Shown here: positions 514 through 27,148 of the stretch, one piece after another
How the letters are laid out: each line of letters begins with the position of its first letter
Numbering within the stretch: the first letter of the stretch is position 1
Assembly (NCBI GenBank): GCA_026419775.2
Contig: JAOPGA020000552.1
Span: 1-64,000 of the forward strand
Source of the DNA: Acrasis kona
Taxonomy: Eukaryota; Heterolobosea; Eutetramitea; Acrasida; Acrasidae
Length of the DNA: 64,000 bases
Direction: 5' to 3'
Translations under genes and position numbers: made by a program
The notes under the pieces: model-generated
Told to the model about the DNA's origin: nothing
Databases searched by the model: none
What the model saw: the letters and a program-made list of their open reading frames with translations, nothing else

Positions 514-553
514 TTAACCCCTACAAAACCATAGGAGAGACCCGGGAAAACTT
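514..553 (+). repeat. piggyBac left end: TTAA plus terminal inverted repeat
   Basis: TTAA at 514-517 is followed by CCCCTAC (518-524) and, after a spacer, by CCCGGGAAAAC (541-551). The first seven bases match the other element end in inverted orientation, and the second block matches CCCGGAAAAC there at nearly the same distance. This two-block layout, a short terminal repeat plus a subterminal repeat, is typical of piggyBac ends. Confidence 0.8.
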
Positions 554-695
554 TATTTTGTAACGACCAATATGGGTTTGTTTATCCCTCAGTCTAATTT
601 TAATTTAATATTTTGAGAGATATCCCGACGATTACAACCCACACAATGATTTTGACAAACACATAGAACATCGTAGAACTCATATAAAAAATATT

Positions 696-1397
696 TTAAT
701 TCATCAATCTTTTAATACACGTCTCTAAACTTCCATCATAACTCACAGTGTCAACCAACACACTATTCATATGTGCTTTCAGTTCATTTAATACTACATC
801 CTCTTCAGGAACTGCTTCAAATAACTCTGCTATAGTTATTTCAAGTAAAATGTATACAATGCGTTTTGTTCCTTTATACGATAATGCTTGCTTTAGTTCG
901 TACCGAAAGAAATCATTTTCGTCCTCAAAGCATCTAGTTAAACAACCAGCATAAAGTAGTACAATTAATGTTGGTGACTCTTTAATGGCGCTTGTTACGG
1001 TATCCATCAAATTATCTCCATTTTCAATGCGATGTACATCACACCACGTACTGCCTTTTTCGATTTGTTCCATTTGTAGATACACAGACGATGCAAATGC
1101 ACACCCAACAGGAATGTTTCCTGACCTCCATCTATATAAAATGATTCTTTTAATGTTTGGAGGGTTATTAAATTCTGGTTGTTTGTAGTCACAGCTCTTT
1201 TCATGACAGTATACAGTATTTTTTTTATGTGCTTTGTATCTACATCCATTCAAATAATGTTGACAATAGAAGTATGTTGTATCACCTTTTGTAGATGTTT
1301 TGCGTTGAATGCCTTTAGTACGCGCCTTTTTTGTTGAATGCTGGGGGGTGTTGGTTGGTTGTTGTTGTTCAGTGTCGCTTGATTGTTGTGCGGGCAT
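696..1397 (-). CDS. Zinc-finger plus TIR-domain protein carried by the piggyBac element
   Basis: This 233-residue protein starts at an ATG (1395-1397). Residues 1-35 are a Gln/Thr-rich, basic tail. Residues 42-71 hold four Cys (45, 52, 64, 69) with a GCRYKAH core, resembling the FLYWCH/WRKY-like fingers common in transposase N-termini. Residues about 82-195 read as a TIR domain: a first strand with IILYRW, a strand ending TWCDV (117-121), a BB-loop-like RIENGDNL, helix SAIKES, strand LIVLLYA, then FRYELKQAL with Glu167 where enzymatic TIRs carry their catalytic Glu, and final strand RIVYILL. Enzymatic TIR domains cleave NAD+; others act as adaptors, and which applies here is unknown. The gene lies inside the transposon, 110 bp downstream of the transposase stop and on the same strand, so it looks like cargo or an accessory gene. 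The TIR call is from pattern only, without alignment. Confidence 0.7.
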   Translation of the reverse strand: MPAQQSSDTEQQQPTNTPQHSTKKARTKGIQRKTSTKGDTTYFYCQHYLNGCRYKAHKKNTVYCHEKSCDYKQPEFNNPPNIKRIILYRWRSGNIPVGCAFASSVYLQMEQIEKGSTWCDVHRIENGDNLMDTVTSAIKESPTLIVLLYAGCLTRCFEDENDFFRYELKQALSYKGTKRIVYILLEITIAELFEAVPEEDVVLNELKAHMNSVLVDTVSYDGSLETCIKRLMN

Positions 1398-1506
1398 GAT
1401 GTTTTTTTTGTGGTTGGGTAATAAATTTGATGATCAACCAAGATAAAATTGATGATTTTTGATGATTTATAATGATGGAATTTACAACAATACAAGGATA
1501 TGTTTA

Positions 1507-3945
1507 TTATGCAGAATCAGAACCCTCAATAGTTAGTTGTGGCTGTTCTATTTCCTCTTGTGCTTCTAAGACCCTATCCCTAGTTTGCTCTAAAGTAATA
1601 TCTCCAGTGTCATTCTCATTTGCATCTGGTATGTTTGCAGCAAGAACATGTTCTCTATGATAGTGCTCAAAACATTTTTTATGTAACCATACACCACACC
1701 TCTGGCATTTGTGAGAACATGAACTATTTTTTTTACAATAGAAACAGCTTTTCTTCCTTTGATTACTTTTGATTAGATTGTGCTGCACTCTGGATTGTCT
1801 AACTCTTGCATTATGTTCAGTGGAGACATCAACAGTTAATTTATGAAGGAAACTCAATTGTGTAAACTGTCTCTTTTTATCCAACTGTGCTCCTTCTCTC
1901 ATAATGAGATATGCATTCACAATACATGCTTTCAAGGCCATGAAGAAATATGCTCTGGTCCACTTTGTATTTCTGTGAGGGTGTGGATAGTAGTTACCAA
2001 TTTTTGCATCAGAACAATCAACACACTGCATACAGTAGTTGTAAATAGTTTGGACATCTAAAACATTCTTTGAATTATTGATCACTGATGGAGTAACAAA
2101 ATTGGTCAAAAAGTTGACAAGCTTGTTATCTACTAGAGAAATAGCACTCACTTTCTGGTCAGGGCTTGATCTCCAACTAGAACCTCTGTCATTACCATTG
2201 TTGGCGCCAGACTTCTTAACTTCATTGGTCAAATTTTTTGCCTCATTGATCAAAGGATTGAATAACCATGATGGTCTGTTTGATNTGACAGTTGACACAG
2301 AATATACATTAGGAAACTCTTCATTAATCTTGTTAACTAAATTCAAACTACCATAGTAATTATCAGTACCCAACAAGAATTTTTTGTCCTTTGGCAGTTT
2401 CTGTAGTTGGTTGGTAACAATAGAAGTTGTGTCTGTATCTTCTGATGACTTTGATCCTTTGTATAACCAAAAGTTATAAACATAACCCAATTTATCAGAA
2501 AGAGCATAAAACTTTAAACCATACTTGATTGGTTTGTTGGGCATAAATATTCTAAAGGCACAGATACCTGTGAACTTGGCCATCATCTCATCAACACTTA
2601 TAATTTCATATGGCCTCCAGAACTTTTGAAAAGCTTTATTGAAATGGTCCTCTATCCACTCTTGATCAAAATGCAGAAATTTATGTACAAGTAACCACTT
2701 ATTTTTAGACATCAAATGTTTGATGTTGGGATTCCCATAATGGAGACTACCTGGTGGTGTCTCTTGCCAGTAGTTATTATGTTCAGGATAAGGTTGAATT
2801 CCCATTACTATACAACAAGCAATATAACACCAAAACATTTTCTTGGTTATAACTTCTGGGGGTTTGAAATCTTGTGGGAGACTCTCTTTCCACTGCTTAA
2901 ATGAGATGTATGGAAGTGGAGCAAACAATGTAGGATTCTCTTGCTCTGCAGTTCTCTCTTGCTGGTAATTCTCCATCTCTATGCCATAGTTCTCATCTTC
3001 CTCTTCTTGCTCTTGTTGTACATTAGCCTGTTCTTGCAACTGCTGAGCTCTCTCTTGTGCAGTTTGTGTTGATTCAGAGACCTTGAATATGGTAATGACT
3101 CTCGGCTTTTTGAATGCTCCTTCTTGTCTGTCCCTCTTTTGCTTTTCCCTAAATTGTGCTCTTTGTGTTTTGATTGTAAGGGTGTTGTTGTATGCTGCAT
3201 ACATATTAGACATATACAGAAAATGGTCTTCAGCATCTTGATTTATAAACAACTTCAAATGATCAAGAGCAGTTTTGCACTTGATTGGGACACCCTGTGG
3301 CCCAAAATCCTCATCTGCTTGTTGGTTATACTTGATACCAAAATCTGTCTTGATTTTTTCTTGTCCCCACTTTTGAAACTCTTCCTCTGTCCTAACTCTA
3401 TTTTGACAAACTGTAGGATCACATGCACATGCAGAAGTACAAACAACTTTAGAGTTTGCACATATACAACCTTTGCAAGTACATGATGCTCTTGTACAAC
3501 AGATTTGTTTTGGTTGTGTTGAAGCTGATGCTGATGTTGATGCATTAGAATTAGATTGTTGGGCATTTTCTTCAAAAGTAGGTGTTTCACCAGGTGGGGC
3601 TCTATTTTTGCATAATTCTATTGTACATTTGCATTTTGTTGTACAATAGTGATTATCAGTTTTACAAACACAATTAATGCATTTACATTTTTTGTTAGTG
3701 CAAAATGATTTAATGTTTGGTTGTGGGGGTTGAGTGATTGGTTGGGTGACTTCTTCTACTTCATCAAAGTTGTCATCTGGATTATCTGAATTGGCCAAGA
3801 TTAAGTATTGTTCTTGGATTGGTGTTAATTCCTCAATATCATGTTCCAATCCCTCTATTTCCATATACACCCTTTGTATAATATCACCAAGATCTAATTC
3901 ATTTCCATCAGGATTCTGGCTTTGAACATAATTAGCAATTGACAT
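1507..3945 (-). CDS. piggyBac-family transposase with N-terminal CXC-like Cys clusters
   Basis: An 812-residue cut-and-paste transposase. The catalytic core shows the piggyBac signatures: SVDEMMAKFTG with Asp452, FRIFMPNKPIKYG, LLGTDNYYGS with Asp528, and CVDCSD (Asp643 or 646) followed by RNTKW and a hydrophobic helix. The C-terminal segment has Cys/His spacing CFYC...CSHKCQRCG...HKKC, the cross-brace finger that binds element ends in this family. Unusually, residues 82-114 and 149-182 are two tandem Cys-rich modules (CxCxxCxC...C...CxCxxxxC) resembling CXC/tesmin-TSO1 domains. An acidic Gln/Glu-rich linker follows (300-335). At about 810 residues it is longer than the insect piggyBac protein (about 600), and the extra length is this N-terminus. 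One unknown residue comes from the N at 2285. The ATG (3943-3945) is the first in the frame. Confidence 0.93.
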   Translation of the reverse strand: MSIANYVQSQNPDGNELDLGDIIQRVYMEIEGLEHDIEELTPIQEQYLILANSDNPDDNFDEVEEVTQPITQPPQPNIKSFCTNKKCKCINCVCKTDNHYCTTKCKCTIELCKNRAPPGETPTFEENAQQSNSNASTSASASTQPKQICCTRASCTCKGCICANSKVVCTSACACDPTVCQNRVRTEEEFQKWGQEKIKTDFGIKYNQQADEDFGPQGVPIKCKTALDHLKLFINQDAEDHFLYMSNMYAAYNNTLTIKTQRAQFREKQKRDRQEGAFKKPRVITIFKVSESTQTAQERAQQLQEQANVQQEQEEEDENYGIEMENYQQERTAEQENPTLFAPLPYISFKQWKESLPQDFKPPEVITKKMFWCYIACCIVMGIQPYPEHNNYWQETPPGSLHYGNPNIKHLMSKNKWLLVHKFLHFDQEWIEDHFNKAFQKFWRPYEIISVDEMMAKFTGICAFRIFMPNKPIKYGLKFYALSDKLGYVYNFWLYKGSKSSEDTDTTSIVTNQLQKLPKDKKFLLGTDNYYGSLNLVNKINEEFPNVYSVSTVXSNRPSWLFNPLINEAKNLTNEVKKSGANNGNDRGSSWRSSPDQKVSAISLVDNKLVNFLTNFVTPSVINNSKNVLDVQTIYNYCMQCVDCSDAKIGNYYPHPHRNTKWTRAYFFMALKACIVNAYLIMREGAQLDKKRQFTQLSFLHKLTVDVSTEHNARVRQSRVQHNLIKSNQRKKSCFYCKKNSSCSHKCQRCGVWLHKKCFEHYHREHVLAANIPDANENDTGDITLEQTRDRVLEAQEEIEQPQLTIEGSDSA

Positions 3946-4373
3946 TACTTGCTGCTGATATTGTCGTTCATCTCTTCTTCTTTTCCTCTCTTTCTCACCT
4001 TTTCTTTGTTTACCCCTAAATACAGTTAATGTTTCTTTAAAATTAATGAAGGGTGAATGCTGATAAGAATTAGATTACTGGCAACAGCAGCTAGCCTCTG
4101 TTCCACAACAACTCAATAGTATTATTAATACTAAAGTGCACGGAGTGTACGCCGGCATTCACGTATCTATCTACAACTGTACAAGTACACGGAGTAGTAG
4201 TATTACTTCACATCCGCTGAGCTTCATCATTCATCCATCTTTACCACCCTTCGTTGACGCGACGTACATACATATTGAATCAAGCCTTCAAGTTGTGCGG
4301 CGATTTCGAAAATGTTACAAAAAATATGAAACCAAATATATTCAAGTTCAACCGGTGCTTTCTTTATTTATTC

Positions 4374-4411
4374 GGTGTTTTCCGGGTGTTTCCGGGTAGG
4401 GTAGGGGTTAA
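4374..4411 (-). repeat. piggyBac right end: terminal inverted repeat plus TTAA
   Basis: Read on the minus strand, the end begins CCCCTACCCTACCCGG (4407 inwards) and then has CCCGGAAAAC about 20 bp in. TTAA follows at 4408-4411. The short CCCGGAAA unit occurs twice here and once at the left end. Confidence 0.8.
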
Positions 4412-5253: not shown

Positions 5254-5308
5254 TTTTATTGTATGTTAATATCATAATAACTATCAATTTGACGTTGATA
5301 ATACAATT

Positions 5309-7240
5309 CCCGATACGAATATTTGAGCTTCCTAAGTATAATGGCTCAGGAAAAAATCAAAAATCGTTGAGCTTGAGTTTGGATCGAAATTATTTTTTGA
5401 TTTTTTTCTGGAGTAATATATGTCAAAAAGCTCAAATATGCGTATCTGGAGTTTCTGTAACTAGTTTTTCAACTTCAGCATAAGTTAACATAAGTCACTT
5501 TTAAAATCCCCGATCCGAGTATATGAGCTTCTCAAGCGTTCTATCTCAATAAATAATTATAAATCGAAGTTTGGGTTTGGGTCGAAATTATTTTTTGATT
5601 TCTTTTCTAGAAAAATATAGGTCAAAATGGTCAAGTATGCGTATCTGGAGTTTCTGTTGCTAGCTTTTCAACATTATCTTTTTGTCGGCGAAAGTCGATT
5701 TTTAAATTCCCGATACAAATATTTGAGCTCTTTAAGCATACTAGCATAAGAAAAAAATCAAAAATCAAAAAACTTGGGTTTGGATCGATGTAAAATTTTA
5801 ATTTTTTTATGGAGAAATATAGGTCAATAAGCTCGAATATACGTATTCGGAGTTTTCGTCCCTCGCTTCTCAACTTCATTTTAGAGTCAGTGAGAGTTGA
5901 TTTTTAAATTCCCGATACGAATATTTGAGCTTATAAAGCATAATAGCTCAAGAAAAAAATCAAAAATCATAAAGTTTGGGTTTGAGTGAGATTCAAATTT
6001 TAATTTTTTTCCTGGGTAACATAAATTTAATCGCTCAAATATACGTATTGGGAGTTTTCGTCGTTGAGATTTCAACTTCGTTTTTGTGTCAGGGAAAGTT
6101 GATTCTTAAATTCCCGATACGAATATTTGAGCTTCCTAAGTATAATGACTCAAGAAAAAATCAAAAATCGTTAAGCTCGGTTTGGGTAGAAATTAATTTT
6201 TGATTTTTTCTTGAGTAATATAGTTTAAAATGCTCGAATAAACGTATTCGGAATTTTTGTCTCCAGGTTTCCAACTTTACCTTTGAGTCAGTGAGAGTTA
6301 ATTCTTAAATTCCCGATACGTATATTTGAGCTTATAAAGCATAATAGCTTAAGAAAAAATCAAAAATCAATAAATTTGGGTTTGAGTCAAAACTAAATTT
6401 TAACTTTTTTCCTGGGGGATATAGTGTAAGACGCCCAAAAATACATATTCGGAGTTTTCGCCCTTGGCTTTGCAACTTCACCTTCGAGTTAACGAAAGTC
6501 GATTCTTAAATTCCCTATACAAATATTTGAGCTTCCTAAGTATAATGACTCAGGAAAAAATCAAAAATCATCAAGCTTGGGTTTGGGTCGAGATTGATTT
6601 TTGATTTTTTTCTGGAGTAATATAGGTTAAAACGATCAAAATTGCGTATCTGGAATTTTCTTCCCTACGTTTTCAACTTCACCTTTGAGCCAGCGAAAGT
6701 CGATTCTTAAATTTCCGATACGAATATTTGAGCTTCTTGAGTGGTCTAGTTTAAGAAAAAATTGAAAATTGATATGCTTGGGTTTGGGTCGATTTTTTTT
6801 TGTTTAGAGCTCTATTACGAATAAGAAGCTTAAATATTCGTAACCGAAGTTTAATGTCAGATTGATTATAGCAAAATTAAAACTCCGAACACGAATATTT
6901 GAGCATTCTGACCTATATTCCAACAGAAAATAATAAAAAATCGATTTTGTTACAAACCCTAACTTTTCGATTTTTAATTTTTTTATGAGCTATTCAGCTT
7001 AATAAGCTCAAATATACGTATCGTGAATTTAAGAGACAACTCTCACTGACTCAAAGGTGAATTTGAAAACCTAGGGACGAAAACTCCAAATATATTTAAA
7101 TTCTAACCTATATTTCTTCAGAAAAAATCAAAAGTTAATTTCGATATTTAATTTATGCTGAAGATGAAAAGCTAGTAACTAGATACGCGTGTCTGGGCAT
7201 TCTGACCTCAACAAAGGCTATGTTGCTCTTTTTTGTAGCT
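5309..7240. repeat. Tandem array of about 200-bp units, each an imperfect hairpin
   Basis: The core cgatacgaatatttgagct recurs with small changes at about 5311, 5511, 5711, 5913, 6115, 6314, 6515 and 6716, a spacing of 199-202 bp. A ninth diverged copy starts near 6886. Each unit also contains, about 120 bp later, an inverted version of the core (for example agctcaaatatgcgtatc near 5430), flanking inverted AAAATCAAAAATCG-like arms, so a single unit could fold on itself. After about 6960 the sequence runs in the opposite orientation: the 7021-7110 segment is the reverse complement of the spacer between units. Short ORFs here share IRIFEL-like peptides only because they translate the repeat; none looks like a gene. 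Confidence 0.85.
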
Positions 7241-19238: not shown

Positions 19239-19343
19239 TTATAACGAATATATAGCCGCCTATTTTTCGGTCAATCTAGATTACAATCAAACAAAGACAA
19301 GGTCGCGGGAGCTTCTCAAATTGAGTAAAATTACAATATAAAT

Positions 19344-20378
19344 ATGAACCAGCCGGCAACAACGAGGAAGCAAAGAATACTAGCATATGCTGTGGCTGTG
19401 TTTGTAGTTGGATTTTTATTCGTGGCATTTATAATCAATAAACCTCCGGATAATGGGCAGGACACTGTTTTAGGAGAGCCAAACGGAAGTGAGGGAAACA
19501 AAAATTCGAAGGTGGATGTATCCAAAATCATTACAGGGTTAAAGAAAATAATTGACGAAAAAGATGATGTTATAAGGTCACTAAAGGAAAAAGCAGGAGC
19601 CCCAACACCTAAAGACATAAAAGACACGAAAGATGGGCAGTGTAAAAACTCCATTTGCAACACCAAAGAGAAGCGCGTTGTATCGTTTGGACTTTATGGT
19701 TCCGATTCAAGATATACTACTGGTGCAATCCACAATACAGAGTTGGTCAAATACATTATGCCCGGCTGGGTCACACGTTTTTATGTTGATGGTTCTGTGC
19801 CCAAGGACGTAATATCCAAGTTAAAAGATAACGGAGCAGAAATTGTTGAAATCTCTGACATCAAGGGAGGCATTGCAGGTATGTTTTGGAGGTTCTTGGT
19901 AGCAGATGACGAGAACGTGGATCGTTACATCATTCGTGATGCAGACTCTAGACTTTCCATGCGCGAGCGTATGGCGGTTGAAGAATGGATAGACAGCGGT
20001 AAACACTTCCACGTGTTGAGAGACCATCCCAACCACAATTTTAACATGAACGGAGGATTATGGGGAGGAGTAAAGGGTGCTCTGGGAAGCAAAATGTCCG
20101 AGCTCGTCAAACAGTGGAAGAGCAAAGACGCTTACCTCGCGGACATGGAGTTCCTGGGTAGCGTAGTATGGCCCATTGTCGAAAAGAATCACATGGCTCA
20201 CGGATCCTATCATTGCGAACGATATCCCGACACCATACCTTTCCCAACAAGAAGAGTCAACAAGGAGATTATTGGTGGAGTTTACGATGACCAAGACAGG
20301 CCGAGAGAAGGTGATTCAGCATTGTTGACGGAAGTACCATTAAAGTGCAGAAAACATCCAGACTACATTTACGGTTAA
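19344..20378 (+). CDS. Type II membrane glycosyltransferase-like protein
   Basis: 344 residues from ATG 19344. Residues 1-11 are cytosolic, 12-31 a membrane helix (ILAYAVAVFVVGFLFVAFII), then a stem of about 80 residues. The luminal domain begins RVVSFGLYGSDSRYTTGAIH, followed by GWVTRFYVDGSVP, GMFWRFLVADDENVDRYIIR and RDADSRLS. The Asp-Ala-Asp at 199-201 sits where many GT-A enzymes coordinate a nucleotide-sugar metal ion; after it come HVLRDHPNHNFNMNGGLWG and SYHCERYPDTIPFP. This fits a Golgi glycosyltransferase-like enzyme, but the donor and acceptor cannot be read from sequence. It converges with the kinase gene (41 bp between stops). Confidence 0.75.
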   Translation: MNQPATTRKQRILAYAVAVFVVGFLFVAFIINKPPDNGQDTVLGEPNGSEGNKNSKVDVSKIITGLKKIIDEKDDVIRSLKEKAGAPTPKDIKDTKDGQCKNSICNTKEKRVVSFGLYGSDSRYTTGAIHNTELVKYIMPGWVTRFYVDGSVPKDVISKLKDNGAEIVEISDIKGGIAGMFWRFLVADDENVDRYIIRDADSRLSMRERMAVEEWIDSGKHFHVLRDHPNHNFNMNGGLWGGVKGALGSKMSELVKQWKSKDAYLADMEFLGSVVWPIVEKNHMAHGSYHCERYPDTIPFPTRRVNKEIIGGVYDDQDRPREGDSALLTEVPLKCRKHPDYIYG

Positions 20379-20419
20379 TAAAATATTTACATTGTTTAAT
20401 TAAGATTTTTGTTTGATTG

Positions 20420-21241
20420 TCAAGGGCTACTCGGCGATCCCTGTATCCACTGGTGGTTTTGGACATCTTCTGATGTGTAGCGTTTCCGTCTGTCTGGATT
20501 CAAAATGTTTATAATGAGGTCTTTACACGGATTGGATATTTCCAACTCATCAAGAGGTATCAAGAACTGACCCATCATTGCTTGTTTCGCTCCGAGGAAA
20601 GGCAGACGACCTGCTAAAAGAGCATAAAGACAACATCCTAGAGACCACAGGTCCACCTCAGGACCCCGATAGCTTTCACCAAGTAGACTTTCTGGCATAG
20701 CATAAAGAGAGTTTCCACGAAAACCTGTCAACAGTTCATTGGGTTTAAAGTATCGGCTGAGACCAAAATCACACAAACGTATTTGGTCATTATCATTGGT
20801 GCAGATATTGGCAAGTTGCAAATCTCCATGTTGGATGCCTACTTTATGCATGTGGTTCAAAGCAGCAAACGTTTGTTTAAAATACCTTCGGCAGGTGGGC
20901 TCCGAAAAAGTCCTGTAAGGGTCATAAACAGACTCTAGTGGGCCTCCACTTGCATACTCCATGACTAAATACATATGCTTGTCTCCTTCAATATAATCTT
21001 CTAACTTTATTATATTCGTGTGGTTAGTACTCCTCATTACACTAACTTCAATTTTAACTGACTCCTTGAGAAGTGGTATTGCCTCAACTTCCTTCTTGAT
21101 ATATTCCTTCACTGCCACTTTTCTACCAGTACGTATATCTTTCCCAAGGTACACTTTTCCAAAGCTACCCTCGGCTAGCTCTTCTTCTATTATGTAGTTC
21201 TTGCCGATGCTACACATACCGCTCTCAGGTCTGAAGCACAT
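20420..21241 (-). CDS. Ser/Thr protein kinase, CAMK/AMPK-like, atypical catalytic loop
   Basis: 273 residues, essentially only a kinase domain. Gly-loop AEGSFGKVYLG (23-33), ATP lysine VAVK (Lys45), helix-C Glu in KIEVSVM, hinge LVMEYASGG, DFG as LCDFGLSRY (158-160), APE as AMPE (181-184), and VDLWSLGCCLYALLAGRLPF in the C-lobe. The overall pattern fits SNF1/CAMK-type kinases. The catalytic loop reads QHGDLQLANI instead of HRDLKxxN: the HRD Arg is Gly and the catalytic-loop Lys is Gln. Asp and Asn are retained, so activity is possible but regulation by activation-loop phosphorylation (which needs the HRD Arg) is probably lost. No regulatory domain is attached. Confidence 0.88.
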   Translation of the reverse strand: MCFRPESGMCSIGKNYIIEEELAEGSFGKVYLGKDIRTGRKVAVKEYIKKEVEAIPLLKESVKIEVSVMRSTNHTNIIKLEDYIEGDKHMYLVMEYASGGPLESVYDPYRTFSEPTCRRYFKQTFAALNHMHKVGIQHGDLQLANICTNDNDQIRLCDFGLSRYFKPNELLTGFRGNSLYAMPESLLGESYRGPEVDLWSLGCCLYALLAGRLPFLGAKQAMMGQFLIPLDELEISNPCKDLIINILNPDRRKRYTSEDVQNHQWIQGSPSSP

Positions 21242-21971
21242 GAATAAGATATTGTTTTAATTTTTCCCAAGGAGTGAATGTGCTAATTTCTAAGGGCACC
21301 TTGGTATCGTCCAATCGAAATCAAAATCAATTTTGGACAAATAAGAGTGGTTAACATATAAAGAAATAGTCTTCTATTTATATTTACAAACAACTCTATA
21401 TCATGTTTTGTAATGGCGTAGCAAAACCGTAGACGGAGGTATTTCGGACAATGTTGTGGTCATACAAATATTTCATCATACTCTTGGACTCCTTTACTAG
21501 AGAGCAAAGTTGGTGTGTGGATCACGTTGAATTTGATTTTTGGAATAATAGAATTGTACTGTGGTAATCCAAATTATTGCACGCGATGTTTTCAGGCATT
21601 CTATTTCTTACATTCGTTCATAATTGAGTGCACCAAAATGAGTTTGCAACAAACGACCATTTGCGAATTTTCAATGTAGATTGTTGTATTTATTATACGT
21701 TACTTGTATCTAAAATAACGGTAAACAACACACCATTGCTGTTATGTCGCATCATGTGAAAAAGTCATCCCTCTATTTAGAAGCATCTTGTCCATGAATA
21801 TTGCTGCTCATACCATGCTATCATCCTAGATTAAGTGAAAAAAATAGATTCCAGCTACATCATCAATGCTTGGAGTTTTATGCTTGTTCTGTAGGGTATT
21901 GCGGGTAAATACGGTCGGAGTCCGTTTACACAAAACTGGAGGTAGTACTTCAAAAACAACACAGCAAATAG
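21242..21971. other. Intergenic, 730 bp
   Basis: Separates the divergent kinase and ABC transporter genes and must contain both promoters. AT-rich; no ORF, RNA gene or clear repeat seen. Confidence 0.4.
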
Positions 21972-24900
21972 ATGACTCACACCCTCGATGAAGTCAAGTC
22001 TGTGAGTGAAATATACAAAGAAGAGGCCGAGGAAATCAAATCTGCTATTCCCAACCAATCAGGTCAAACTGAAATCTCACACGTGCAACCTGTCGCAGAT
22101 GTGGTGGAGGAAAAGATTGCACTCGCGGACGAAAAGAAGTTTGTCGACCCTCAAGACCCAAAAATATCCACGCCGCTCAGACTAATACCGCTTGTTGGTC
22201 TTGATTGGATTCTAGTCATATTGGGATTTTTATGTTTCGCAGCCATGGGCGTCATGCCGATAATATTCTTTTTTGTTTTGGGAGATCTTATAGGTGCATT
22301 GTCGAATTCAAGTGACGTCGAGGCGACGAGGTGAGTTCGAACGATTGATCCGCTCATTCAATTTGATAGGAGGGTAGTGAACGAAACCGCTTTAAAGATG
22401 ACATACATTGCCATCGGCGCATTCTTCGCCGCTCTTTTAGGAAAGGCATTCCTAGGCACAGCAGCCCAACGAATAGCCATCCGCATCAAAAGTTATTACT
22501 TCCACAGCATCGTCAAGCAAGAGATTGGATTCTTCGACATGAATTCTACGGGTCAAATGATCAAAACGTTGAGTGAGGATGTGGCCAAGCTCACGACCGT
22601 GTTCGACATTGATCTCATGAATCTGGCTCAGAGCGGAGGTCAAAGCTTGTTGGGATTCATCATGGCCTTGGTCACGTCGTACGAGGTGGGACTTTTAGGC
22701 TTCACGTCCCTTCCGTTGATGTTCGTGTTGGTCGTCGGCTCGGCGATCGCCATGGACTTGTTGGCGAAGAGATCGTCCAAACAATTATCGAAATCGGTAT
22801 CCACGGTGAACGAAGTGTTGTCGAGCATGAGGACGGTGAGGAGCATGGCAGGAGAGGACAAGGAGCTGAAGAGGTATTCCAACGAAATTGGAGCGGCCAG
22901 CACCACCGGCGTCATATCCGCCGTCTGCAACGCGGTGTCTTCGTCGTTGATCGTGTTCTTCGTGTGGGGTGCCATCGGACTGGCCTTTTGGTGGGCGGGA
23001 AGATTGTTGGAGGCAGATCGTCTCAGCATCAACAATCTCATCAAGATGTGGGGCTTCATGGTCATCACCGTGACCGGTCTACAATCGTTGCTCAACAACA
23101 TACCCAACGTGGTCAAGGCACAATCGTCCATCGTGTCCCTGCTGTCGGTCATTTATCGCAAGCCAGCCATTCCCTACGCTGGCGGTGCAAAGATTGACAA
23201 CATCAGGGGTCACATTGTGTTCGACAATGTCACGTTTAGATATCCTAGCAGACCAAAGATTGCGGTGCTCAAGAACTTTTCGTTGGACATGCAACCCGGT
23301 AAATCGGTGGCGCTGGTGGGTCAATCGGGATCGGGCAAATCCACCATCGTGGGATTGGTAGAAAAGTGGTACGAGCCGGAACAAGGCACCATCACCATCG
23401 ATGGAATCGACCTCAAGACCATCGATTCGCAGTGGCTACACAGGCACGTCGGCATCGTGTCGCAGGAACCAACGCTGTTCGCCACCACCATCGCCAAGAA
23501 CATTACCTATGCAGTGGACACCATCAACTACAACACTCGTCGCTTGTTGAGGAGGGACGATCCAAACATTACCGATCAAGAATTGGAGAGCAAAATGATT
23601 CCCACCAGTCAAGAGACGATCGAAGCAGCAGCCAAATCAGCCAACGCTCATGACTTTATCGTCAAGTTGCCGGAGGCATACAACACGGTGCTCGGCGAGA
23701 GGGGCATATCGCTATCGGGCGGTCAAAAGCAACGAATCGCCATCGCGCGCAGCGTGTTGCAGAATCCAAGCATATTGCTGTTGGACGAGGCGACATCTGC
23801 GCTGGACACCAAGTCGGAATCATTGGTGCAGGATGCGCTGGAAAAGTTGATGGTGGGTCGCACCACCATCGTGGTGGCACATCGATTGACCACGGTTCAG
23901 AACTGTGATCAGATCGTGGTCATGAAGCAGGGAGTGGTGGTGGAACAGGGCACTCACATGCAGCTCATCGACAAACCCAACGGCTATTATAACGCACTGG
24001 CCACCAAACAAAAGAATTTTGGAAAGAAGAGTCACTCGCACGGCGACCAGCCATCGTCGAGCAGTCAACACGGCGGCGATGACGAAAAGAGCGACCTGGA
24101 TACCAGCAGCAGCAGCAGCCAAGACAAGAGCACCGATCAATTGGTGCCACAAGAATCAATTACGACCACCTACACCAGTCCCACCACCCTAGAACCAGAT
24201 CAATTGGTGCAGAATATCGACGCGAGCATTCAACCACAAAGCGTCAACGAACCTCAACTAAGCAAGCGCAAAAAGTTATCAAAAAAGAAACAAGCCAAGC
24301 AACGACTCAAGAAATCGGATGACTTTTCCAACGCAGAGGAGATACAAGACGTGCACGAACCAAAGGTCAAATCGTTCCTTCCCATCTTTGCTCTGTTCGG
24401 ACTGGACGTGTTGTGCATTCCGTTGTTTTGTTTGGGTGCTGCTGGTGTCGGTGCCACGCCCATCGTGTGCATGCTCATCTTTGGAAGAATTACCAACAAG
24501 GTGGTGCCTGCGCGTAACGACGACGGCAGCTTGATTCCGTTCCCGCCCGGATATAGCGTTGCTGCTGGCCTAGCGCAAGAGGCATCTCATCTGGCCATCA
24601 TCGCAGCCTGTGCCTGTGCATGTCAATTCTCGAATTACTTCTTCAGCAATTATGCGAGCGAACGATTCGCCACTCGCGTCAAGCGTCACATGTTCAAGAA
24701 TGCGCTGCAACAAGAGATGGGTTACTTTGACATTGTCAAGGGCGGTCGATTGTTGGCCATATTCAGCGAAGACGTGTACAACATCAAGGATGGATTCACC
24801 AGTCGATTGGCCAACGTGTCGCAAAACATGTCGCAGTTTGTTGTGGGCGTGATATTGGCCATGATCACGTCGTGGCAGATGAGTTTGATCATGTTGGGCA

Positions 24901-26195
24901 CGTCGCTGGGCACCACCTTCTTGACCATCTGCATCACTCATGGATTCGTGGTTCACTTTCAAAAACAATTCGCAAAGCACAGCGGCAGTGCCATGGTGAC
25001 CGCCACGGAGGTGATCGGTGCCATGAGGACCGTGAGGAGCATGGCAGGAGAGGACAGAGAGATGAGAAGATTCGATCAAGATGCAGATCGTGCCATGAAG
25101 AGCGCCATCGGATCCACCATTGCCGCCAGCATTAGCTTCGGCATCGTCTTGTTCTGCGTGTGGGCGGTGACCGCGCTGGCACAGTGGTACGGGGGCAACT
25201 TGTTGGCACAGGGAACGCTTCCAGCATCAGCGCTCACCCAAGTGACGGGCAACATGACGTTCGCCATCATCGGATTGTCGCTGGCCATGATCGAGTTCGG
25301 CAACGTGAGCAAGGCATTCCAGAGCAGCGTGAACGTGTTGAAGATTGCCGCCAGGAAATCACAAATACCGCTCAGAGGCGGCGTCAAGTTGGAGGGTGGC
25401 ATTCAGGGCAATGTTGATTTGGAGAATGTGGACTTTGCTTATCCATCCAGACCCAACGTGACGGTCATGAAGAACTTTTCTCTCAAGATATCCAGGGGAC
25501 AGCACGTTGCGTTGGTGGGCGAGAGTGGATCTGGCAAGAGCACCATCACCGGATTGATTGAGAGATTTTATGATCCCATCAGCGGAGTGGTCAAGGTGGA
25601 TGGAGTGGACCTGCGCACTGTGGATCCAGAGTGGTTGCACAAGAACGTTGCCATCGTGACGCAGGAGCCAGTGCTGTTTGCCACCAGCATTCGTAATAAT
25701 ATTACTTATGCAGTGGGTCATGATGCGGTCACGTTCGATCAGGTGCAACAAGCAGCCAAGGCAGCCAACGCGCACGATTTCATCATGACCCTTCCTGATG
25801 CCTACGATACCATGATTGGAGAGAGAGGCGTCAGTATGAGCGGCGGTCAGAAGCAGCGCATCGCCATCGCTAGGGCCATGTTGCAGAATGCTAGCTTGTT
25901 GTTGTTGGACGAGGCCACCAGTGCGTTGGATACGGAGGCCGAGAGTTTGGTACAGGCTGCTCTCGATAAGCTCATGTTGGGAAGGACCACCATCGTGATT
26001 GCTCATCGTCTGAGCACCATTCAGGACTGTGATGTGATCGTGGTGATGAGGAGCGGAGAGATTGTGGAGAAGGGAAATCATGCCGAATTGATCGCCAAGA
26101 AGGGTGCCTATTTCAAGTTGGCACAGAAGCAGATGGCATTCGGTGGTGGAGATGATGCCGGTGGTATAAAGGTAGAAATAACCGAAAATGATTAA
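21972..26195 (+). CDS. Full-length ABCB-type (P-glycoprotein-like) ABC transporter
   Basis: Two exons, 21972-22330 and 22370-26195 (39-nt intron), encode 1,394 residues in the order TMD1-NBD1-linker-TMD2-NBD2. NBD1 shows GQSGSGKST, ISLSGGQKQR and ILLLDEATSALD with the H-loop VVAHRLTT. NBD2 shows GESGSGKST, VSMSGGQKQR, LLLLDEATSALD and VIAHRLST. Both sites look catalytically competent. The linker (about 650-760) is Ser/Gln/Lys-rich. Membrane domains carry the ABCB pattern FFDMNSTGQ and RTVRSMAGED in both halves. Such proteins export hydrophobic compounds or lipids at the plasma membrane or organelles; the substrate is unknown. Exon 2 is much more GC-rich at third positions than neighbouring genes. 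The first exon holds the cytosolic tail and first helix. Confidence 0.95.
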
Positions 26196-26217
26196 ATTGA
26201 AATTGTACAATATTTAT

Positions 26218-26778
26218 TTAAAATGTTGGTTGAGCCTTGCCCATGTCGATCTTCATGTTTTGGTCTTTGGTTGGTTCGTATGACTTTCCGGTTGCGATGG
26301 CCTTGAAGTAACTGTATAGCTGGACCATTCTGCTGGCGTACTCATCCCAATATTCAGCACCCTCAATGTCGAATCTCAACAAGCACATGTCTGGCTCTTC
26401 GAGACCCTTGGGGAACCATGCTCTCAAGATTTCGTTCCATAACTCTTCCATCTTCTCCTTGTCCTCTACTACGGTAACCTTGCCAATCAAGCTTAACCAT
26501 GTGGCAGTCTTTACGTCGGAGAATGACAAGTTTGCATCGCTATTTTGTTGAACTTCGTCACATTTGATGCTGGCCTTTCTGGTGAAGAACCAAAGTGATT
26601 GTCCGTCAAACTCAAGTTTTTGCATATACATTGGTCTGGAATGGAGAGATTTGGTCTTGGTGGATTGTGTGGTTAACATTGCAGTTTCTAGTGTCTTGAT
26701 CAAGCTCTTCAACTTTTCAATGTTTTCTCTGCTTGGTTCGTGTTGTTCGCTGTTGGTGAATTCTTGGTTGCCACTCAT
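26218..26778 (-). CDS. Pyridoxamine-phosphate-oxidase-like FMN split-barrel protein
   Basis: 186 residues from ATG 26778. The sequence resembles bacterial general stress protein 26: TAMLTTQSTKTKSLHSRPM, LWFFTRKASIKCDEVQQN, DANLSFSDVKTATWLSLIGK and LLRFDIEGAEYWD. This family forms a dimeric split beta-barrel that binds FMN, and is not the vitamin B6 oxidase itself. A likely role is a stress-related flavin-binding protein in the cytosol (no targeting signal). It converges with the ABC transporter (22 bp between stops). The 370 bp upstream (26779-27148) lies between it and the divergent NHL gene and shows no other feature. Confidence 0.8.
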   Translation of the reverse strand: MSGNQEFTNSEQHEPSRENIEKLKSLIKTLETAMLTTQSTKTKSLHSRPMYMQKLEFDGQSLWFFTRKASIKCDEVQQNSDANLSFSDVKTATWLSLIGKVTVVEDKEKMEELWNEILRAWFPKGLEEPDMCLLRFDIEGAEYWDEYASRMVQLYSYFKAIATGKSYEPTKDQNMKIDMGKAQPTF

Positions 26779-27148
26779 TTTGTTGTGTTTTTTGTGTTAT
26801 TTGTTTTTGTTATTTTTTCGGGGGTCTATTTATTTCATTCTATTAGCCGAGATCCCGATTGTAATTTAAATAGAATAAGGCTTTATTTTTAGTACTTACT
26901 GATCTAACTGTATTATGGAAATAGATTATCTGTTCTGGGGATACATTTGTCAAAAGTATTCCTCCTCTACCTGTGGTGTGACGGAGGTCCTATCGGCCTA
27001 GCCTTGCTTTTAATCGCGTTGTCTCGTGTGAAATTGAATTACCCATTCGTCGTTTTAGGCCGCCTTGATGTTGCTTTACAAAAATCTATTGGTCCAAAAA
27101 AGCATTTGGTTACTAAAAGAATTATTCACTGGTTATAATCAAACAAGC

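Follow-up and report, generated by a model that had tools for sequence, protein, structure and literature searches.

A piggyBac lineage of Acrasis kona with a conserved second gene encoding a predicted TIR-domain protein

The DNA analyzed here, referred to as the window, is a stretch of 64,000 nucleotides from Acrasis kona, a member of Heterolobosea (contig JAOPGA020000552.1, or C260 in the contig numbering used below), belonging to an assembly of 37.35 Mb in 1,021 contigs. Near its start lies a piggyBac element that encodes, besides its transposase, a small protein with a putative N-terminal zinc finger and a predicted TIR domain. Small eukaryotic cut-and-paste transposons usually carry only the genes needed for their movement. 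The features of the element, assigned to family A, are listed below.

514..4411, no strand assigned: piggyBac element of family A, 3,898 bp when both TTAA copies are counted, with inverted TTAACCCCTAC ends
514..550, plus strand: left end, on the side of the TIR gene, with TTAA, CCCCTAC, and a subterminal CCCGGGAAA block from 541
696..1397, minus strand: gene for the finger-TIR protein, 233 residues, lying after the transposase, with 109 bp between it and the transposase stop and 182 bp between it and the element end
699..1157, minus strand: predicted TIR domain, residues 81-233
897..899, minus strand: codon of Glu167, aligned by phmmer with the Glu of SARM1 DWVHKE
1191..1265, minus strand: putative zinc finger, residues 45-69, C45-x6-C52-x12-H65-x3-C69
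1507..3945, minus strand: piggyBac transposase open reading frame (ORF), 812 residues, open throughout, with one X from a single N at 2285
4379..4411, minus strand: right end, on the 5' side of the transposase, with TTAA, CCCCTAC, and two CCCGGAAA blocks from 4396 and 4386

The original prediction placed a transposase and a second gene on the same strand between TTAA sites, inverted CCCCTAC ends, and subterminal blocks, and all of these were found, with both ORFs on the minus strand. The TTAA duplication occupies positions 514-517 and 4408-4411, and the window has CCCGG(G)AAA blocks at 541 (plus strand), 4396, and 4386 (both minus strand) and nowhere else. Exact copies of TTAACCCCTAC within the window are limited to two, at 514 (plus) and 4411 (minus), reading inward. 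With one mismatch there were 2 matches against 0.55 expected, a number reached in 10 of 100 shuffles, and the motif on its own is not decisive for the boundaries. The boundaries were nevertheless deduced to be firm because the same end pair recurs on C247 and C77, where the similarity continues farther inside the ends and the outer flanks differ, and the left end is also present on C271, C7, and C178. The copy on C247 (44505-45185) is a derivative of 681 bp that retains both ends without a match to either gene. The copy on C77 was considered as an 8.1-kb element with cargo, and this was rejected, as its inner part (approximately 19311-26948) has its own inverted ends and TTGTCGACT on both flanks, read by eye. 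We take this inner part to be a separate transposon that sits inside a short derivative of family A. The nested stretch, about 7.6 kb within C77:18900-27500, has ends that begin with GCGGATATCTGAAATGTAC, and its ORFs gave weak matches to SWIM and ubiquitin, both below the Pfam cut-off.

The transposase ORF matched DDE_Tnp_1_7 in Pfam with an E value of 1.8e-37 (129.9 bits; cut-off, 22.4). Residues D452, D528, and D643 are found in VDEMM, GTDNYYGS, and QCVDCSD, motifs that we take to be the piggyBac DDD contexts.

Searches of the assembly for the TIR gene gave 24 matches with the window ORF as the query and 26 with the protein of C782, together covering 22 contigs. On 8 of the 22 (C260, C570, C10, C886, C559, C736, C782, and C160), the gene is immediately preceded, on the same strand, by a transposase or what remains of one, and both TTAA ends are present on one contig in three elements, namely, C260 514-4411, C570 6755-10570, and C10 8795-12839. 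Family A is the window element. Family B, with ends TTAACCCTCTGACGACC, was found end to end on C570 (3,816 bp) and, in diverged form, on C10 (4,045 bp), both with the TTAA duplication, and its left end recurs with small differences at six loci, each with a flank of its own. In family C, left ends of the form TTAACCCTCCTAGCACCG lie on C782 and C160, with differing flanks, and right ends of the form TTAACCCTCCTAGCACTT were seen only on C449 and C659, next to transposase sequence from the 5' part; no contig holds a whole family C element. A one-off insertion or a host gene was ruled out by the recurrence of the TIR gene between both ends in families A and B.

Ends were used only where family sequence adjoins them. 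Scans with the end motifs did not rise above the reversed-pattern control (12 forward and 14 reverse matches against 23 and 18, 2 and 9 against 14 and 12, and 9 and 12 against 15 and 15), and end matches with two or three mismatches are therefore mostly chance. The ends on C449 and C659 (2 mismatches of 18) were accepted on the adjacent related transposase and the sequence shared beyond the motif. Separately, C453 and C407 are 99.6% identical over 1.7 kb and carry a family B TIR-gene fragment with no matched transposase; the ORF just upstream presumably encodes an elongation factor, by our own reading of its sequence. Beyond the element, the window holds a tandem array at 5305-6792 (7.4 copies of a 201-bp unit) that resembles sequence beside the element copies on C7 and C178. 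It also holds, at 319-429, a dispersed repeat of about 110 bp; copies with 97% identity lie at C521:1963-2070 and C559:19448-19558, and the C559 copy sits between two pieces of a family B transposase.

The TIR identity of the second gene product is weak by sequence and firm by predicted fold. Against Pfam TIR_2 (gathering cut-off, 28 bits) the window protein scored 17.6 bits; among six element copies tested, only that of C782 exceeded the cut-off (28.8 bits), with the copy on C570 (14.6 bits) joining the window copy below it. An NCBIfam scan gave nothing meaningful. The best structural matches of the predicted fold were TIR domains, with SARM1 first and TIR-1 also among the closest. The Glu of SARM1 DWVHKE, with which Glu167 aligns, is in our reading E642, which is mutated in entry 7cm7. 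This position is Glu in 12 of 12 rows chosen for alignment A3 and in 15 of 17 readable genomic copies, the other two having Lys (C178, an incomplete copy) or a stop (C389); two chance matches outside the family were set aside for this count, and the motif is unreadable in other fragments, such as that of C623. Predicted fold and Glu together place the window protein among the enzymatic TIR domains, and it is somewhat more likely than not that it is a working TIR enzyme of the SARM1 or bacterial type.

Selection on the two genes was assessed from the ratio of nonsynonymous to synonymous rates (dN/dS) across copies. All four informative within-family comparisons of the TIR gene were under 1: 0.128 for C260-C245 (95% range, 0.058-0.255; 119 codons), 0.107 for the C-terminal piece of C570-C10 (0.031-0.232; 126 codons), 0.255 for its N-terminal piece (0.100-0.640; 87 codons), and 0.218 for C782-C736 (0.124-0.406; 111 codons). 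The transposases of C10 and C570 gave 0.065 and 0.092. These low ratios are those of purifying selection within families, and since single copies decay freely after insertion, within-family values are expected to overstate the ratio under selection. Uninformative comparisons were C260-C7 and C260-C178 (2.1 each, with 95% ranges of 0.31-3.46 and 0.27-3.59, from 9 differences in incomplete fragments), C782-C160n (0.52, from 3 differences), and C570-C886 and C570-C741 (no synonymous and 3 and 1 nonsynonymous differences, respectively). Between families, where the TIR proteins share 42-44% identical residues, A-B and A-C were saturated (dS undefined), B-C gave 0.173 at a dS of 3.1, and A2-C gave 0.301 at a dS of 1.8. 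The anatomy of the element and the selection on its TIR gene are held with near certainty.

As a separate observation, C570:6755-10570 and C10:8795-12839 are more alike over the TIR gene and left end (identity, 0.89-0.97, with one 13-base block at 1.0) than in the 5' half (0.68-0.88), and the dS of this pair is 0.28-0.29 for the TIR gene versus 0.85-1.34 for the transposase. From these profiles, exchange of a module of TIR gene and left end between elements is possible.

In trees of the transposase core, the TIR-bearing transposases formed one clade (FastTree, 0.991; IQ-TREE ultrafast bootstrap, 92). Together with recurrence in other families and low dN/dS, this bears out the proposal that the gene belongs to the element. 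Of the two outcomes named in advance as refuting that proposal, a predicted fold other than TIR and a gene confined to one insertion, neither occurred. The only family C sequence in these trees was the decayed copy on C736, and the family grouped weakly with A (0.645; 66). C341 and C839 also fall in the TIR-bearing clade, and their similarity to C570 ends before the TIR gene. The sister clade (0.953; 96) includes elements with both ends and the TTAA duplication on C612 (66622-69304) and C799 (5102-7786), which have approximately 115 bp after the transposase stop; the genome searches with the window and C782 proteins gave no TIR-gene match on either contig. The transposase frames of these two elements are themselves broken. 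The simplest history suggested by the trees would be a single acquisition of the gene before families A, B, and C split, after which it was kept as a part of the element; alternatively, the gene may have been lost in the sister clade.

A host donor of the TIR gene was sought exon by exon with Pfam models in the 37.35-Mb assembly, where PF13676, with 3 candidates scored, recovered the element copy on C782 alone and PF01582 gave no match. The window copy itself was missed, and the published genome is 44.02 Mb, with 16.8% repeats and much horizontal transfer (PMC11589745), so that a diverged host TIR gene could escape; within these limits, no host donor is visible. For relatives elsewhere, a single-sequence search confirmed 0 of 86 candidates and a profile search confirmed 3 of 3,928, named P0001, P0002, and P0003, with TIR_2 scores of 20.2, 20.0, and 26.1 bits, respectively. 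P0001 is the A. kona protein of the TIR-gene fragment on C160. P0002 (228 residues), from a 3,904-bp contig, has both finger and TIR domain, is 39-41% identical to families B and A, and branches separately from all three A. kona families in a tree, with weak support (62). P0003 (E value, 0.025) is a TIR protein without the finger. PADLOC gave weak TIR-Argonaute and SAVED-TIR matches for the C782 protein and P0003 (E values, 0.0016-0.018) and none for the other three of five proteins. A search elsewhere with transposase residues 330-812 confirmed 2 of 2,727 candidates, neither of which had the 3,904-bp contig as its longest. None of 20 stretches from a viral contig collection was confirmed, nor were any of the 6 and 10 stretches from a prokaryotic collection. 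P0001 (C160:220-660) bears the name 'Bmpr2' in the public protein set; the name likely stems from a chance match of the N terminus to BMPR2, since the C782 copy gave such a match (14.9 bits; E value, 0.12).

The words piggyBac, TIR domain, and Toll are absent from the main text of the A. kona genome paper (PMC11589745). Among the titles listed in searches of open-licence literature, none reports a TIR gene in a piggyBac element, and a preprint from 2026 that describes eukaryotic uptake of a bacterial TIR protein mentions neither Acrasis, transposons, piggyBac, nor zinc fingers (PMC13142454).

The N-terminal region contains four putative ligands in the arrangement C-x5/6-C-x12-21-H-x3-C, which are invariant in families A, B, and C and P0002 (in 7-row and 5-row alignments of the finger). 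The model for family B predicts this part as a pair of strands, one further strand, and a long helix, with block values of the predicted local confidence measure (pLDDT) of 71-85. Pfam, run on four fingers alone, assigned a family to none of them; the nearest zinc-finger match was Sina_ZnF, observed only for the P0002 finger (14.2 bits; E value, 0.06; cut-off, 32). The finger had originally been called FLYWCH-like. This has so far not been sustained, as no FLYWCH match appeared at E values up to 10, though HMMER filters drop most weak matches, and whereas FLYWCH has H-x-H spacing, the finger here has H-x3-C. The two matches of the finger to PDB sequences (API and a proteinase inhibitor; E values, 0.016 and 0.025) were taken as chance, and the fold lists, filled by the TIR part, gave no usable finger class. 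The putative finger may bind zinc and may bind DNA.

The TIR gene was kept through the divergence of three families, and therefore its protein appears to be worth its cost to the element; from its presence in at least three families of the clade and the purifying selection on it, we infer that the element makes use of it. In the mechanism proposed, the putative finger would bring the protein to a target, either nucleic acid or a partner protein, clustering there would switch the TIR domain on, and the active domain would consume nicotinamide adenine dinucleotide (NAD+) or make a nucleotide signal as an effector for the element. The least sure step is the gain, which could be the exclusion of a rival element or virus or the stopping of a host cell in which one replicates, with the TIR NADase SpbK of the bacterial mobile element ICEBs1 as the precedent. 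In our judgment, a TIR enzyme that acts as an effector on behalf of the element, whatever it may target, falls a little short of an even chance. The broader proposition, that of a transposon lineage with a TIR-type immune enzyme as a core gene that excludes rivals or viruses or disarms host silencing, is offered tentatively, and the specific role in excluding rivals is rather doubtful.

Several observations weigh against an element-serving TIR enzyme. The C247 derivative, with ends and neither gene, implies that mobility may not need the TIR gene in cis, and neither a rival element nor a trigger was identified. On 13 of the 22 contigs (C178, C7, C245, C652, C677, C521, C453, C407, C623, C389, C342, C837, and C555) the TIR gene has no matched transposase beside it, and these contigs were left out of the evidence for the gene pair. 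Several of these copies are incomplete or stop bearing, they include the near-identical pairs C7/C178, C245/C652, C453/C407, and C342/C837, and the transposase search scored 56 of 97 candidates, so that a weak remnant could be missed; on C741, the remaining contig, the locus ends at the contig edge. Both ORFs are unbroken only in the window element among the three with both ends, since C570 has a frame break in its transposase and C10 has a frame break in its TIR gene and a stop near the transposase start. TIR_2 gave no match in three of the six element copies (C886 and the partial copies of C245 and C10). The Trp beside the Glu in SARM1 is replaced by Phe in the window protein. Many TIR domains are nonenzymatic scaffolds, and a conserved Glu alone is no proof of catalysis.

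Foremost among the alternatives is an anti-silencing or transposition factor whose finger would bind the element's own DNA, for example, at the subterminal blocks, while the TIR domain, by local NAD+ use or self-assembly, would keep the element expressed or build the transpososome, much like VANC of the Arabidopsis VANDAL elements. The restriction of the CCCGG(G)AAA blocks to the two element ends is consistent with this, as are the terminal sequences and diverged finger that each family has as its own, and almost the full set of universal RNA interference components is reported for A. kona (PMC11589745). However, neither Pfam on the fingers nor PDB by sequence yielded a DNA-binding domain family, and a catalytic-type TIR domain would be unnecessary for such a role, which we consider unlikely, if the best placed of the alternatives. 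A selfish addiction or host manipulation system, in which the TIR enzyme harms or alters cells in favor of carriers, such as through cell death or aggregation, would suit both the SARM1 NAD+ hydrolase and TIR-1 among the closest matches of the predicted fold and a host that is an aggregative multicellular amoeba (PMC11589745). It is given a low probability, as only two ORFs over 110 residues lie on the coding strand of the element and no candidate antidote gene was found among its contents. Slightly less probable still is a scaffold whose catalysis has been lost, the TIR domain serving as an oligomerization module for the element's proteins; signaling by assembly is common to many TIR domains and the Phe noted above would fit, but the Glu persists in three families that are about 43% identical, as well as in P0002 and P0003. 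A passenger, that is, a host gene caught by chance in one copy, would account for a TIR gene where none is expected in a piggyBac element, yet it is contradicted by recurrence in three families and purifying selection, has no TIR gene outside the element family to derive from by PF13676 and PF01582 (within the limited reach of that search), and is highly improbable.

Under the preferred reading of a TIR enzyme that serves the element, eukaryotic transposons would put immune-type enzymes to their own use, in the manner of some bacterial mobile elements; under the foremost alternative, TIR chemistry would take part in transposition or in escape from silencing. If the broader proposition of a core immune enzyme is true, these elements would be a eukaryotic counterpart of the TIR defense genes carried by mobile elements in bacteria, and they could spread TIR genes among eukaryotes, providing a concrete vehicle between lineages. 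The emphasis of the host genome paper on horizontal transfer would provide a setting for such movement.

The elements share with the piggyBac superfamily the TTAA target, short inverted ends, and a DDE_Tnp_1_7 transposase and differ in that the A. kona clade has a second conserved gene of the TIR type, whereas the sister elements on C612 and C799 have room for the transposase only. Teratorn is likewise a piggyBac element with genes beyond the transposase; it is fused to a herpesvirus, spans 41-182 kb, and carries about 90 other genes (PMC6431247), unlike the A. kona elements of 3.8-4.0 kb with one small gene. Compared with SARM1 and TIR-1, the 233-residue protein has no counterpart of the ARM/SAM region and has the N-terminal finger instead. 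VANC of the Arabidopsis VANDAL elements is also a transposon-encoded accessory protein, from another element type, and to our knowledge it has no TIR domain. Its anti-silencing activity has been shown (PMC5735166). A further parallel is SpbK of Bacillus subtilis, also a TIR protein on a mobile element. Its gene, spbK, belongs to ICEBs1 and defends the population against phage SPbeta through abortive infection (PMC8880864), and the protein is an NADase activated by clustering (PMC12847820). ICEBs1 is a bacterial conjugative element for which both NADase and anti-phage action have been shown, whereas the A. kona element is a eukaryotic cut-and-paste transposon whose TIR protein has a predicted function.

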